From Thalassospiraceae bacterium LMO-JJ14 (GTDB lineage Bacteria; Pseudomonadota; Alphaproteobacteria; Rhodospirillales; Casp-alpha2), in contig CP134604.1 in assembly GCA_021555105.2 (NCBI GenBank), forward strand, positions 744,001 to 808,000: a DNA stretch of 64,000 nt, written 5' to 3'. Both the position numbers and the translations under genes were made by a program. The notes under the pieces were generated by a model. That model did no database searches. It worked only from the letters and a program-made list of their open reading frames with translations, and had not been told where the DNA came from. Shown in pieces: positions 57,192-62,783 of the stretch (position 1 is its first letter; the number at the start of each line of letters is the position of its first letter).

Positions 57192-58100
57192 ATGGACTTA
57201 CGTCACCTCAAGACATTGATCGCGATCGCAGAGCACGGATCGTTCGCCGCTGCCGGCGAGGCTGTCGGTCTGACCCAGTCCGCTGTCAGCCTGCATGTCA
57301 AAGCGCTCGAGGAATATCTGGAAACAAAGCTGTTCGACCGGACCACGCGGCCGCCGCGCCTCAACACAAGGGGCCGCAATCTGGTCGACCGGGCGCGCGA
57401 TATCGTCGAGCAGTGCGAAAGCCTCACCGACATCGTTACCGGCGAAGCGCTCTCGGGCAGCCTGGATATCGGTTCGGTGCCGACGCTTCTGTCAGGCATA
57501 CTGCCGCCGGCATTGAGTGCGATCCGCGAGACGCACCCCGATCTTCGGATCCGTGTTTCCAGCGGCTTGTCTGCCGACCTGGTCGGGCGGGTGCACAAGG
57601 GGGAATTGGACGCCGCCGTGGTGACGGAACCGTCACAGCTTCAGACCGGGCTGAGCTGGCATATGTTCGCGGAAGAGCCGCTGATGGTCATCGCACCGAA
57701 GGGCACCAAAGGCTCGACCGATCGCGAGCTGCTCGACGCCGGGCCGTTTATCCGGTTCCAGCGGTTTGCCTGGGCCGGGCGGCTGATCGACACGCATCTC
57801 AAGGACCGGGGTATCCGCGTCAATACAGGGATGGAGATCGATTCTCTGGAGGCCATTGCCTCAATGGTGGCGCACGGGCTCGGCGTTTCCGTGGTCCCCG
57901 ATCGGGCCGGAGCCAAGTTGCCCGACGAGGTCGAGAAAATTCCTTTCGGGGATCCGCCGCTCAACCGGGTCATCGGTGTCGTCGAACGGCGCGATAATCC
58001 CAAGGCGCATTTAATCCGGGCGTTGGTTGAAATTCTCAGCGGTCTGGCCGGAGACAAACGGCCAAAGGGCATCGGGCGGCAGATTATAGGTGAGATTTAA
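57192..58100 (+). CDS. LysR-type transcriptional regulator of the downstream operon
   Basis: A 302-residue regulator that begins at the canonical LysR start, MDLRHLKTLIAIAEHGSFAA. The HTH (GEAVGLTQSAVSLHVKALEE) ends near 60, and the effector domain follows. An upstream in-frame ATG would add 20 residues that are not typical. It reads in the same direction as the CoA-transferase, acyl-CoA-dehydrogenase-fold and TPP-enzyme genes and probably controls them through the spacer at 58101-58194. Confidence 0.88.
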   Translation: MDLRHLKTLIAIAEHGSFAAAGEAVGLTQSAVSLHVKALEEYLETKLFDRTTRPPRLNTRGRNLVDRARDIVEQCESLTDIVTGEALSGSLDIGSVPTLLSGILPPALSAIRETHPDLRIRVSSGLSADLVGRVHKGELDAAVVTEPSQLQTGLSWHMFAEEPLMVIAPKGTKGSTDRELLDAGPFIRFQRFAWAGRLIDTHLKDRGIRVNTGMEIDSLEAIASMVAHGLGVSVVPDRAGAKLPDEVEKIPFGDPPLNRVIGVVERRDNPKAHLIRALVEILSGLAGDKRPKGIGRQIIGEI

Positions 58101-58137
58101 TCAAGTTTTTCGAAATAATAATTCGTTTTTATCAAGT
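58100..58137. promoter_or_regulatory. Candidate LysR operator region
   Basis: ATCAAGT occurs at 58100-58106 and again at 58131-58137, 31 nt apart (about three helical turns), around an imperfect inverted repeat CGAAATAATAATTCG (58111-58125). This AT-rich stretch is the only non-coding DNA before the operon. Confidence 0.4.
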
Positions 58138-58194
58138 AATATCTTCGGCTAAAACACAGGTGCGGTTCAAACCGTACGCGACAGAGGAACACCC

Positions 58195-59436
58195 ATGACG
58201 AATACTACGGAGAACAAAGGAACAGGCCCGCTTGAGGGCATCCGAATTCTCGATCTCACCCGCATCCTTGCCGGACCGACCTGCACGCAGCTACTGGGCG
58301 ATCTCGGCGCTGACATCATCAAGATCGAAAAGCCGGTCGACGGTGACGACACCCGGGGCTGGGGCCCGCCGTACCTGAAGGATACGGACGGCAACGACAC
58401 CCGCGAAAGCGCCTATTACATGGCGTCGAACCGCAACAAGCGCTCCGTCACCGTCGATATCGCCAAACCCGAAGGGGTCAGGTTGATCAAGGAAATGCTC
58501 AAGAGCTGCGACGCGCTTTGTCATAACTTCAAGGTCGGCGGTCTCGACAAATACGGCCTCGGTTATGATGAAATACATGCCGAATTTCCGGACAAGGTTT
58601 ATCTGCATATTTCGGGCTTCGGACGCACCGGGCCATATGCCAAGCGAGCCGGTTACGACATGCTGGCGCAGGGCATGGGCGGGGTCATGAGCCTGACCGG
58701 GCCTGTCGACGGCGATCCGCACAAAGTCGGTGTCGGCATTTCGGATGTGATGTGCGGGATGTATGCGACGACGGCGCTTCTTGCCGCGCTCCGCCATCGT
58801 GACAAAACAGGTCAGGGGCAGTTGATCGATCTGGCGCTGTTGGATACCTCCGTCGCCTGGCTGATTAACGAAGGCGTCAATTATTTGACGCACGGCAAGG
58901 AAAACGTGCGCCGCGCCAATGCACATTCCAACATTGTACCCTATGACGTTTATCCGACGGCGGATGGTTACGTTATTCTGGCGATCGGTAACGATGGTCA
59001 ATATCAGCGGTTTTGTGAATATGTCGGCAAACCGGAAATGGCGACCGACGAACGCTTTCGGACCAACGATCTGAGAGTCCGCAACCGCGATGCCATTACA
59101 CCGCTGATGCGACAGATCACGGTAATGAAGACGACCGCCGAGTGGGTCGACGGGCTGGCTCCGCTGGGTGTGCCGTCGGCGCCGGTCAACACTGTGCCGA
59201 TGGCTTTTGAAGATCCGCAGATCAATCATCGCGGCATGCGTATAGAAATGGATCATCCGATATCGGCCGACGGCAAGTGCCGGTTGATCGGCAATCCGAT
59301 CAAGTATTCGGAAACGCCCGTCACCTATCGCCGCCCGCCACCGATGACCGGAGAGCACACCGATGAAGTCCTGAAGGAAATGCTGAACCTGGATGCCGAC
59401 GCGGTTCAAAAGCTCCGCGACGACGGCGTCATTTGA
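58195..59436 (+). CDS. Class III CoA-transferase (CaiB/BaiF family)
   Basis: A 413-residue CoA-transferase. It has ILDLTRILAGPTCTQLLGDL, the ADIIKIEKP strand, the VCHNFKVGGLDKYG-like segment (ALCHNFKVGG), and catalytic Asp155 in RAGYDMLAQGMGGVMS. It is followed at once by the acyl-CoA-dehydrogenase-fold gene, whose AAGGAG lies across its stop. In known thiodipropionate degraders a class III CoA-transferase activates 3-sulfinopropionate for a desulfinase of the same fold as that neighbour; this is the basis for the proposed role. Confidence 0.88.
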   Translation: MTNTTENKGTGPLEGIRILDLTRILAGPTCTQLLGDLGADIIKIEKPVDGDDTRGWGPPYLKDTDGNDTRESAYYMASNRNKRSVTVDIAKPEGVRLIKEMLKSCDALCHNFKVGGLDKYGLGYDEIHAEFPDKVYLHISGFGRTGPYAKRAGYDMLAQGMGGVMSLTGPVDGDPHKVGVGISDVMCGMYATTALLAALRHRDKTGQGQLIDLALLDTSVAWLINEGVNYLTHGKENVRRANAHSNIVPYDVYPTADGYVILAIGNDGQYQRFCEYVGKPEMATDERFRTNDLRVRNRDAITPLMRQITVMKTTAEWVDGLAPLGVPSAPVNTVPMAFEDPQINHRGMRIEMDHPISADGKCRLIGNPIKYSETPVTYRRPPPMTGEHTDEVLKEMLNLDADAVQKLRDDGVI

Positions 59437-59447
59437 AGGAGACCCCA

Positions 59448-60665
59448 ATGTTTCATCTGAGCGAAACGCAATTGCAGATACAGGAAGCCGCGCGCCGGCT
59501 TGCGAGCGGCGTTATTGCCGAACGTGCCGCCGAGGTTGACCGGACCGAGCAATACCCCTGGCACAATGTCGAGGAACTCACCAAAGCCGGTTTCATGGGG
59601 ATGACAATCCCCAAGGAACATGGCGGTCAGGGACTGACGTTTTTCGATGCCGTGTTAGTCGTCGAACAGATGGCAAAGGTATGTGGCGTTTCTGCGCGCA
59701 TCGTCGTCGAAGCCAATATGGGGGCCGTCAGCGCGGTCATGAGATACGGCTCCGAGGAACAAAAGAAACTGGCCGCGTCGCTTGTCCTTGCGGGTGACAA
59801 ACCGGCGATCTGCATCACCGAACCGGGGGCTGGCTCGGCGGCGACCGACATGACCACCAAAGCCGTCAAGCGCGGCAGCGAATACGTCATCAACGGCACC
59901 AAGCACTGGATCACCGGGGGTGGTGTGTCGAAACTGCACCTGATCTTCGCGCGCGTGATCGAGGACGGAACCGACATGGGTATCGGCGGTTTCATTGCCG
60001 TCAGGGACGAAGCCGAAGGGCTGCGTGTCGGCACCCGTGAACCGGCGATGGGGCTTCGCGGTATTCCGGAATGCGAGATGATCTTCGAAGACCTCGTTAT
60101 CCCCGAAAGCATGGCGCTGATCCCGCCGGAGGGGATCAAACGAGGATTTGCCGGCCTCATGAACGCCTATAACTCGCAGCGCGTCGGCGCCGGAACGGTG
60201 GCGCTGGGTATTGCCGAAGGTGCGTATGAACAGGCGCTCAAATACGCCGGTGAACGCGAGCAGTTCGGCCGTCCGATCGCCGAGTTTCAGGGGCTGCAGT
60301 GGATGCTGGCCGACATGTCGGTGGGCCTCGCCGCGGCGCAGGCGCTGATCTACAAGGCGGCGACCTCGGCGGAAACGACGCAGGGCGGATTCCCCGACAT
60401 GCTGATGGCGGCGCAGGCGAAAATCCTCGCATCGGAAACGGCGATCAAGGTGACGTCGGATGCGTTGCAGGTCTTCGGTGCGGCGGGTTATTCCCGAAAT
60501 CTGCCGATGGAGCGCATGTACCGCGATGCGCGGATGTTCACCATCGGCGGCGGTACGGCGCAGGTGTTGCGCAATCTGGTCGCCGGCCAAATCCTCGACC
60601 GCAAACTGCCGCAGACCCGTGATGGATACACGAAACTGGCCGAGCGCGCCCGCGCTGCGGAATAA
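59448..60665 (+). CDS. Acyl-CoA-dehydrogenase-fold protein, desulfinase-like
   Basis: A 405-residue flavoprotein. The ACAD features ICITEPGAGSAATDM, HWITGGG, EREQFGRPIAEFQGLQWMLA and GAAGYSRNLPMERMYRD are present. But the catalytic Glu is missing at both positions used in the family: the EGT site reads GGGT (Gly368), and the isovaleryl-CoA-dehydrogenase-type site has Gln244 (YNSQRVGAG). Arg84 is in VSARIVVEAN. A Gln for Glu and an invariant Arg84 are, as I recall, marks of 3-sulfinopropionyl-CoA desulfinases. ATG at 59448 has AAGGAG upstream. Confidence 0.85.
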   Translation: MFHLSETQLQIQEAARRLASGVIAERAAEVDRTEQYPWHNVEELTKAGFMGMTIPKEHGGQGLTFFDAVLVVEQMAKVCGVSARIVVEANMGAVSAVMRYGSEEQKKLAASLVLAGDKPAICITEPGAGSAATDMTTKAVKRGSEYVINGTKHWITGGGVSKLHLIFARVIEDGTDMGIGGFIAVRDEAEGLRVGTREPAMGLRGIPECEMIFEDLVIPESMALIPPEGIKRGFAGLMNAYNSQRVGAGTVALGIAEGAYEQALKYAGEREQFGRPIAEFQGLQWMLADMSVGLAAAQALIYKAATSAETTQGGFPDMLMAAQAKILASETAIKVTSDALQVFGAAGYSRNLPMERMYRDARMFTIGGGTAQVLRNLVAGQILDRKLPQTRDGYTKLAERARAAE

Positions 60666-60678
60666 GGAACGACAGAAT

Positions 60679-62295
60679 ATGCCGAGCACATCCGACATCA
60701 TCGCGAAACGGCTTTATGACGCCGGGTGCCGCCACGCATTCGGCATTCCGGGCGGCGAGGTGCTGTCACTGATGGACGGGCTGGAAAGTGCCGGCATTCA
60801 GTTTCATCTGGTGAAGCACGAAAATGCCGGTGGGTTCATGGCCGAAGGCACGTACCACGCGACGGGTGCGCCGGGCATCCTGCTGGCGACGGTCGGGCCG
60901 GGTGTCGTTAATGCGGTTAACGTCGTCGCCAATGCATGGCAGGACCAGGTGCCGATGATCTTCCTGACCGGGTGTGTCGATGCCGCCGAAGCCGAAACCT
61001 ATACCCATCAGGTTTTCGATCATACGAAAGTAATCGAACCGATCTGCAAGGCCTCCATGGTCGTCGCCGACGGTGCCGTCGACGTGATGATCGACAAGGC
61101 GCTGGCCATCGCCATGCAGGATCCGCCGGGGCCGGTGCATCTGGATGTGCCGATCAATATCGCCGGAACCGAAGCGAAAGTGACGGGCTATCCCGGTCGC
61201 GCGCCGATGTCGAAAACGGCCCCCGCGCCGGGACCGGACCTTGAGCGTGCACGCAAAGCCATTGCCGGGGCCGAAAGGCCGCTGATGATCTGCGGTGTCG
61301 ATGTGCTGCATCACGATGCCGCCGCGGTTATCGATGAAGCGGTGCACAGGCTGAATATGCCGGTCCTTACATCCTATAAAGCCAAGGGTGTGGTTGCCGA
61401 GGACGATCCTCTTGCGCTCGGCGGGCATGGATTGTCGCCGAAGTCCTACAAGGCGCTGAAACCGCTGATCGACGATGCGGATGTTATTCTGCTGGCCGGG
61501 TACGATCCCATCGAAATGCGCATCGACTGGCGGAACGCCTGGCCGACGGGCATTGACGGTAAAACCGTGATCGAGGTCTCGGGACATGCCAACACCCATT
61601 ATGTGCATCAGGCCGATATCAACTTCATTTGCGACGTCGGCGCCGGGGTGAGCGCGTTGACGAGCGGTATCAACGGCAAGGACACCTGGAAAGGCGGCGA
61701 CATCGAAAAGATGAAGGCGGCGCTTCAAGGCGCCTTCCCCAGGGACGAGGCATGGGGCCCGGCGGCGGTCATTGATGCCGCGCGCACAGCATTCCCCAAA
61801 CAAGGTTTCGCCGCCGTCGATACCGGTGCGCACCGAATTCTGCTGAGCCAGCAATGGGAGTGCTATCAGCCACGGACACTGGCGCAGTCGACCGGGCTTT
61901 GCACCATGGGCTGCGCGCTGCCGATCGCCATGGGCCACAAGATCGCCAATCCGGACACGCCCGTTATCGCATTTACCGGCGACGGCGGCATGGAGATGAT
62001 CCTTGGCGAACTGGCGACGCTTCGCGACATGAAACTTGCGGTGGTCATTGTCGTCTTTGTCGACGAAAGCCTGGGGCTGATCGAATTGAAACAGCGTGCC
62101 AACAAACAGGATAATCTCGGCGTCGATTTCGGCGGTACGGATTTCGCCGCATTGGCGCGCGTCATGGGCGGCATCGGCGTCACGGCGAGCGACCGCGCAA
62201 CACTGGAAACGGCCATCGCGGACGGGATGAATGCGGATACCTTTACCCTGATCGCCTGCCCGATCGGCAGAAAAGCCTATGACGGCCGCTTCTGA
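60679..62295 (+). CDS. Thiamine-diphosphate-dependent enzyme (acetolactate-synthase-like)
   Basis: A 538-residue three-domain TPP enzyme. The catalytic Glu48 is in VKHENAGGFMAEG, and a central Rossmann-like domain follows. The TPP motif starts GDGGMEM at 434-440. The usual Asn-Asn end of that motif reads Val-Asp (461-462) in VFVDESLGLIE. The substrate is unknown; decarboxylation or ligation of a 2-oxo acid is expected. It lies 13 nt after the desulfinase-like gene and thus belongs to the same operon. Confidence 0.86.
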   Translation: MPSTSDIIAKRLYDAGCRHAFGIPGGEVLSLMDGLESAGIQFHLVKHENAGGFMAEGTYHATGAPGILLATVGPGVVNAVNVVANAWQDQVPMIFLTGCVDAAEAETYTHQVFDHTKVIEPICKASMVVADGAVDVMIDKALAIAMQDPPGPVHLDVPINIAGTEAKVTGYPGRAPMSKTAPAPGPDLERARKAIAGAERPLMICGVDVLHHDAAAVIDEAVHRLNMPVLTSYKAKGVVAEDDPLALGGHGLSPKSYKALKPLIDDADVILLAGYDPIEMRIDWRNAWPTGIDGKTVIEVSGHANTHYVHQADINFICDVGAGVSALTSGINGKDTWKGGDIEKMKAALQGAFPRDEAWGPAAVIDAARTAFPKQGFAAVDTGAHRILLSQQWECYQPRTLAQSTGLCTMGCALPIAMGHKIANPDTPVIAFTGDGGMEMILGELATLRDMKLAVVIVVFVDESLGLIELKQRANKQDNLGVDFGGTDFAALARVMGGIGVTASDRATLETAIADGMNADTFTLIACPIGRKAYDGRF

Positions 62296-62384
62296 GGCGG
62301 ATTTCACATTTGCGTGCGTTCGGCGGAAAACGCTGGAAGTCTTTTCCGTCCCGGATTACTTCGTGGTGTGAACCGGAGGACAGA

Positions 62385-62783
62385 ATGACGGACAAAGTTA
62401 GCAAATCCGAACAGGAATGGATGGACCAGCTCGGTTTCGAAGCGTTCAAGGTGCTGCGTATGAAAAGTACCGAACGTGCCGGCACCAGCCCGCTCAACCA
62501 CGAAAAGCGCAAGGGGGTCTTCGTTTGCGCCGGGTGTGGCGAGCCGCTTTTCACGTCAGAAAGCAAATTCGAGTCCGGCACCGGCTGGCCCAGCTTTTAT
62601 CAGCCGGTCAGCGACGAAGCCATTGGCGAGGAAATAGACAAGGGTTTCTTCATGACCCGGACCGAAGTGCATTGTGCGAAATGCGACGGGCATCTCGGCC
62701 ATGTGTTCCCGGACGGCCCGCAGCCGACCGGCCAGCGTTTCTGCATCAATGGTGTGTCGTTGAAATTCAGGCCGGAAGATTAA
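62385..62783 (+). CDS. msrB: Peptide-methionine (R)-S-oxide reductase
   Basis: MsrB repairs oxidised methionine in proteins. The 132-residue protein has the zinc-binding CxxC pairs (VCAGCGEPLF and HCAKCDGHLG), GTGWPSFYQPV, and catalytic Cys in QRFCINGVSL. GGAGGA precedes the ATG. It overlaps by 4 nt the stop of the convergent GST gene. Its position after the sulfinate-type operon is suggestive but it is separated by 89 nt and may be independent. Confidence 0.95.
   Translation: MTDKVSKSEQEWMDQLGFEAFKVLRMKSTERAGTSPLNHEKRKGVFVCAGCGEPLFTSESKFESGTGWPSFYQPVSDEAIGEEIDKGFFMTRTEVHCAKCDGHLGHVFPDGPQPTGQRFCINGVSLKFRPED

Follow-up and report, generated by a model that had tools for sequence, protein, structure and literature searches.

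A probable 3-sulfinopropionyl-CoA desulfinase operon with a conserved thiamine pyrophosphate enzyme in Thalassospiraceae bacterium LMO-JJ14, and a tentative amino-acid source for its substrate

A probable desulfinase operon with a TPP partner

The stretch of DNA considered here (the window) comprises 64,000 nucleotides of the genome of the marine alphaproteobacterium Thalassospiraceae bacterium LMO-JJ14 (contig CP134604.1, forward-strand positions 744,001 to 808,000), which is a single contig of 3.89 Mb. It contains a four-gene operon encoding a LysR-type regulator, a class III CoA-transferase, a flavoprotein with an acyl-CoA-dehydrogenase fold and a thiamine pyrophosphate (TPP) enzyme (Table 1). 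Removal of sulfite from a small sulfur compound is very probably their function, and the flavoprotein can be assigned with high confidence to the known family of 3-sulfinopropionyl-CoA desulfinases. A second enzyme, the TPP enzyme, is fixed beside the desulfinase in many bacteria; this suggests an unrecorded route from a sulfur-containing amino acid to the desulfinase substrate.

Table 1. Features of the operon and its downstream neighbour (window coordinates)
Feature	Position	Strand	Length	Remarks
LysR-type regulator	57192-58100	+	302 aa	Pfam HTH_1 and LysR_substrate
lysR/CoA-transferase intergenic region	58101-58194	+		Conserved block ATAATnnTTCGTTTTTATCAAG, kept in congeners
Class III CoA-transferase	58195-59436	+	413 aa	Pfam CoA_transf_3; candidate catalytic Asp184
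3-sulfinopropionyl-CoA desulfinase (probable), acyl-CoA-dehydrogenase fold	59448-60665	+	405 aa	NF042439; 5AF7; Arg84, Gln244, Gly368
TPP enzyme, acetolactate-synthase fold	60679-62295	+	538 aa	Pfam TPP_enzyme_N/M/C; predicted omega-anionic 2-oxo acid decarboxylase
MsrB, peptide-methionine (R)-S-oxide reductase	62382-62783	+		TIGR00357 above cut-off

Identity of the flavoprotein

The flavoprotein scores 668.1 bits against NF042439, the NCBI equivalog for 3-sulfinopropanoyl-CoA desulfinase (cut-off 600); its second-best family gives 314 bits (cut-off 640). Among solved structures the best match is the Advenella desulfinase 5AF7 (527 bits, E 2.4e-157; runner-up 252 bits), and the two proteins are 62% identical in the alignment. 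The other 17 matches in the host genome reach at most 315 bits, far below the window protein. A preliminary description of this DNA had pointed to Gln244, Gly368 and Arg84. All three were read directly from the sequence, and they are invariant in 102 of 102 distinct relatives (at least 55% identity). Glu occupies neither base position in these relatives; Gln is found at the isovaleryl-type site and Gly at the common site. Eleven paralogs have Glu or Gly at position 244, and at position 84 they have A, T, S, L, F or D (residue listed for ten of the eleven). The desulfinase branch is described as lacking the catalytic Glu (AGG motif) and as catalysing no redox reaction (PMC8360864).

The sequence traits of desulfinase membership are present: the score, Arg84, the absent catalytic Glu, and adjoining class III CoA-transferase and LysR genes. 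The likeness to desulfinases proposed in the preliminary description is borne out by the equivalog score, the best structure and the invariant residues. A grouping with true dehydrogenases, which it had named as evidence to the contrary, was not found. It is hardly credible that the flavoprotein is an ordinary dehydrogenase or acts on another beta-substituted acyl-CoA. The desulfinase assignment does draw on sequence, which leaves some room for such a reading, but the equivalog score, the identity to an assayed enzyme and the lack of Glu at either base position all argue against it. On the residues in the 102 relatives, the reading as an ordinary dehydrogenase was rejected.

The four genes run in one direction with short gaps of 95, 11 and 13 bp, and the open reading frames and gaps agree with what had been claimed for them. 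The CoA-transferase is a CaiB/BaiF protein (CoA_transf_3 domain, 409.6 bits). Its Asp184, which lies within GISDVMCG, is the candidate catalytic residue. The closest family is succinate--glutarate CoA-transferase (NF052585), but the score of 461 bits is below the cut-off of 750, and the protein is not assigned to it. Several relatives keep the desulfinase and TPP pair without an adjacent CoA-transferase. In Variovorax paradoxus the CoA-transferase belongs to class III (PMC6370202). In Advenella the cluster order is lysR, class III CoA-transferase, acd, mdo; Advenella is reported to use SucCD for the CoA-activation step (PMC5373536).

Linkage of the TPP enzyme to the desulfinase

The order lysR, CoA-transferase, flavoprotein, TPP gene is constant across the genus, and the desulfinase and TPP genes are adjacent in all 20 family relatives inspected; the arrangement is therefore not due to chance. 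The regulator is found at the equivalent position in the genus, with 85-94% identity. The closest named relatives are Rhodospirillales metagenome-assembled genomes (MAGs). More widely, a desulfinase lies within 400 bp of the TPP gene in 59 of 110 TPP relatives, from several classes of Proteobacteria, SAR324 and Streptomyces coffeae. These relatives were gathered by similarity to the window and are a biased set, so an even sample of the class (385 genomes) was also used, in which TPP enzymes were counted above 500 bits and desulfinases above the cut-off. The TPP enzyme is present in 25 of these genomes and the desulfinase in 50. When the window genome is left out, the desulfinase occurs in 14 of 24 genomes with the TPP enzyme and in 35 of 360 others, with about three co-occurrences expected (Fisher p 4e-8, related genomes not being independent). 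The two genes lie 63-194 bp apart in half (7/14) of the sampled genomes that hold both. On the TPP tree adjacency has to switch at least 11 times, so the pairing has been formed or lost many times. An even sample of the phylum gave matches in Alphaproteobacteria only; no Burkholderiaceae replicates were gained. At 20 alphaproteobacterial loci where the desulfinase has no TPP neighbour, the gene is nearly always an orphan, and no conserved partner that would name the sulfinate source was found there; orphans likewise prevail at L128-L145.

Several other loci deserve mention. MAGs of SAR324 and Deltaproteobacteria (L170, L171, L176, L179, L187) carry the pair, and several share a nearby short-chain dehydrogenase/reductase gene and an AMP-ligase-like gene. 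A 5.3 kb contig of the Nitrospinae CG11 MAG (L181) has an operon 74-93% identical to that of the window; it is probably a misbinned alphaproteobacterial contig. Rhodococcus rhodnii NRRL B-16535 (L220) and Kibdelosporangium aridum DSM 43828 (L221) have near-identical TPP loci, a sign of either a recent transfer or one contaminated assembly; L220 also holds a YeiH-family exporter (PF03601).

Fold and pocket of the TPP enzyme

The TPP enzyme has the expected residues for thiamine diphosphate (ThDP) binding (Glu48, Asp435 and Asp462). Its model has the fold of the catabolic acetolactate synthase AlsS (TM about 0.87, 26% identity), with the ThDP-binding motifs present; the model is of low quality in the active-site loops (465-484) and supports the fold, not the pocket. 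Acetolactate synthase families score below their cut-offs (PRK08322, the best family, 341 bits against 509; another 265 against 510). Arg281, Arg386 and Lys471 are proposed to contact a distal anion. All 64 desulfinase-linked members share them, and AlsS has Asp, Ala and Gln at these positions. The identity of a biosynthetic acetolactate synthase is ruled out by score and residues. The host genome contains 15 further TPP-enzyme matches.

Cyanobacteria possess TPP-dependent decarboxylases of 2-oxoglutarate, in one of which docking set Lys386 and Lys471 on the substrate; Arg386, Met410, Asp435, Asp462 and Lys471 of the window enzyme coincide with positions in that enzyme by residue number, not by alignment (PMC10418658).

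Neighbouring genes in other bacteria

Plasmid pBB1 of Cupriavidus necator N-1 carries, all within 11 kb, genes for a CoA-transferase, a desulfinase, an aspartate-type transaminase, a TPP enzyme and an aldehyde dehydrogenase of the succinate-semialdehyde dehydrogenase (SSADH) type (606 bits against TIGR01780, cut-off 646); two LysR genes and an acetylornithine-deacetylase-type hydrolase belong to the same cluster. The same transaminase (70-75% identical) recurs, along with the CoA-transferase, the desulfinase and the TPP enzyme, in Variovorax CF079, Achromobacter kerstersii and Streptomyces coffeae. In a gammaproteobacterial MAG a divergent transaminase (26% identical) lies directly 3' of the TPP gene. 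Clusters of Variovorax and Mesorhizobium loti include a YeiH-family putative sulfate exporter (with no TPP gene in view in M. loti).

A transaminase adjoins the TPP gene in five loci outside the window, which indicates that the 2-oxo acid substrate is derived from an amino acid. This bears on the reading of the TPP enzyme as a carboligase, like acetolactate synthase or 2-hydroxyacyl-CoA lyase, whose reaction would fall on the propionyl-CoA or aldehyde side of the pathway. The fold and the best family, noted above, favour a carboligase; the adjacent transaminases and the replacement of the AlsS residues by Arg281, Arg386 and Lys471 make it distinctly unlikely.

A candidate route from homocysteinesulfinate

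Taken together, a transaminase, a 2-oxo acid decarboxylase, a semialdehyde dehydrogenase, a CoA-transferase and a desulfinase point to homocysteinesulfinate as the amino acid that would yield 3-sulfinopropionate. Transamination would give 4-sulfino-2-oxobutyrate, a sulfinate isostere of 2-oxoglutarate, which the TPP enzyme would decarboxylate to 3-sulfinopropanal. A succinate-semialdehyde-type dehydrogenase would oxidise this to 3-sulfinopropionate. The CoA-transferase would then load the acid with CoA taken, for example, from succinyl-CoA. Finally, the flavin adenine dinucleotide (FAD) enzyme would remove the sulfinate without net oxidation, yielding propionyl-CoA and sulfite. In the window organism the transaminase and dehydrogenase would be supplied in trans. 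Every enzyme class named is one that handles the series glutamate, 2-oxoglutarate, succinate semialdehyde, succinate and succinyl-CoA; here a sulfinate would stand where those compounds have their distal carboxylate. There is precedent for such substitution: glutamate decarboxylase of E. coli accepts homocysteinesulfinate, and homohypotaurine yields 3-sulfinopropionate with GABase (gamma-aminobutyric acid (GABA) transaminase plus SSADH), the sulfinate being read as a carboxylate bioisostere (PMC11396700).

The host genome encodes an SSADH above cut-off, aspartate-type transaminases, and methylmalonyl-CoA mutases for propionyl-CoA. No YeiH-type exporter was found in it. The desulfinase identity, the CoA-transferase class, the TPP fold and the conserved linkage are supported by sequence tests; the TPP substrate, the amino-acid source and the enzymes acting in trans are what we infer from them. 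The whole pathway, from homocysteinesulfinate to propionyl-CoA and sulfite by way of the TPP step, is put forward as a possibility that falls a little short of evenly balanced. More tentative again is the general formulation, in which homocysteinesulfinate catabolism copies the route from glutamate through 2-oxoglutarate and succinate semialdehyde to succinyl-CoA and employs a new family of TPP-dependent 4-sulfino-2-oxobutyrate decarboxylases. The preliminary description had suggested that the TPP enzyme acts upstream on a sulfinated 2-oxo acid; the transaminase and semialdehyde dehydrogenase neighbours in other bacteria strengthen this suggestion, and the substrate itself is still a prediction.

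Several observations weigh against the proposed route. The window operon has neither a transaminase nor an aldehyde dehydrogenase, and C. necator N-1 is the sole case in which the complete gene set was seen. The correspondence with 2-oxoglutarate decarboxylase is one of residue numbering. Deletion of a putative acetolactate synthase gene in the acd cluster of V. paradoxus TBEA6 left growth on thiodipropionate unchanged, although the gene product is abundant on 3-sulfinopropionate (PMC6370202). This result, for a protein only possibly akin to the window enzyme, is neutral, since thiodipropionate would feed in below the TPP step. Finally, 30 of the 110 TPP relatives sit with OpgC, mostly also with a CoA-transferase, a tetratricopeptide repeat (TPR) protein and OpgG/OpgH, and have no desulfinase. 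These desulfinase-free relatives carry the same Arg and Lys residues, so the residues are not a specific pointer to sulfinate.

The last two points suit another reading, in which the TPP enzyme decarboxylates a C5 dicarboxylic 2-oxo acid such as 2-oxoglutarate, and its link to the desulfinase reflects a shared use of succinate-like acids rather than a sulfinated substrate. The CoA-transferases at the OpgC loci are of the succinate type, and the distal-anion residues are identical in both contexts. A general enzyme of this kind leaves unexplained a tight pairing with the desulfinase that recurs in distant lineages, and we consider this reading somewhat unlikely.

The OpgC loci, in which the TPP gene lies with a class III CoA-transferase, a TTC38-like TPR protein, OpgC and often OpgG and OpgH, include some of Rhodobacteraceae type (L186, L199, L203, L205, L207, L211, L215, L218, L227) and some on Rhizobiaceae plasmids (L231-L233). 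OpgC belongs to a glucan succinyltransferase family. At these loci the TPP enzyme may act on 2-oxoglutarate or some other acid, and it is possible that the family makes an acyl group for periplasmic glucans there; to our knowledge no such role has been described.

A further alternative is that the operon is fed by oxidation of 3-mercaptopropionate, as in Advenella and V. paradoxus TBEA6, with the TPP enzyme as an accessory of unrelated role. The published Advenella order ends in mdo (PMC5373536), and acd-mdo pairs also occur in Diaphorobacter. However, no gene for a thiol dioxygenase of the cysteine dioxygenase (CDO) fold was found in the host genome, so the described 3-mercaptopropionate route seems to be absent. 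No Mdo lies near any TPP-desulfinase pair; the sole Mdo-like match near a TPP gene is weak (25%) and belongs to a Bordetella trematum locus that has no desulfinase. The alternative is quite improbable. If the TPP enzyme acts on a sulfinated 2-oxo acid as proposed above, many marine and soil bacteria could draw on an oxidised amino acid for both carbon and sulfur through a single decarboxylation, a TPP family annotated as acetolactate-synthase-like would acquire a function, and desulfinase genes without a dioxygenase would be explained.

Regulation and surrounding genes

Between lysR and the CoA-transferase gene, the block ATAATnnTTCGTTTTTATCAAG is kept in all five congeners while its flanks diverge. 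It is likely to be a regulator or promoter site, and the LysR protein presumably controls the operon. An Rfam search gave no match, and promoter and terminator scans gave results at chance level.

In 15 of the 20 family relatives an msrB gene follows the TPP gene, on the same strand and at times several hundred bp away; in the window a glutathione S-transferase (GST)-like gene faces it. MsrB is a frequent neighbour in the family with no obvious place in the pathway, and its link to it is unproven. A methionine or methional route involving MsrB was considered and rejected, its sole support being this proximity. Just upstream of the lysR-desulfinase-TPP operon, members of the wider family often encode a dioxygenase of the TauD or the PhyH type or the ATPase of an ATP-binding cassette (ABC) transporter (L037:769-2423, L040:12049-13793, L045:5126-6864); these may offer an alternative source of the sulfinate.

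Comparison with known systems

The described source of 3-sulfinopropionate in the literature surveyed is 3-mercaptopropionate from thio- or dithiodipropionate. No bacterial pathway for the predicted intermediates or for homocysteinesulfinate was found in the searched literature, which is weak evidence, as subscription papers were mostly outside its scope. The desulfinase is of a kind already known; as far as that literature goes, neither its conserved TPP partner nor the amino-acid source predicted here is described.

The arginine transaminase pathway (AruH-AruI) consists of a transaminase, a TPP-dependent 5-guanidino-2-oxopentanoate decarboxylase and an aldehyde dehydrogenase. The C. necator N-1 cluster follows the same logic of transaminase, acetolactate-synthase-like TPP decarboxylase and aldehyde dehydrogenase. 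The window TPP enzyme differs in scoring 235 bits against PRK07524 (cut-off 500), and its predicted substrate is anionic, with CoA activation to follow.

The cyanobacterial pair of 2-oxoglutarate decarboxylase and SSADH likewise involves an acetolactate-synthase-like TPP enzyme, with cationic residues at Lys386 and Lys471 that correspond by numbering only, and C. necator N-1 has the SSADH-type partner; the window enzyme is tied to a desulfinase, not to the tricarboxylic acid cycle. With AlsS the enzyme shares fold and ThDP motifs, but differs in overall identity and in the three proposed anion contacts. The nearest systems are those of Advenella mimigardefordensis DPN7 and V. paradoxus TBEA6, where LysR, class III CoA-transferase and desulfinase are also clustered, and the DPN7 desulfinase (the 62% identical enzyme above) has the same diagnostic residues. 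The window differs from both in having no mdo and in placing the TPP gene directly after the desulfinase.

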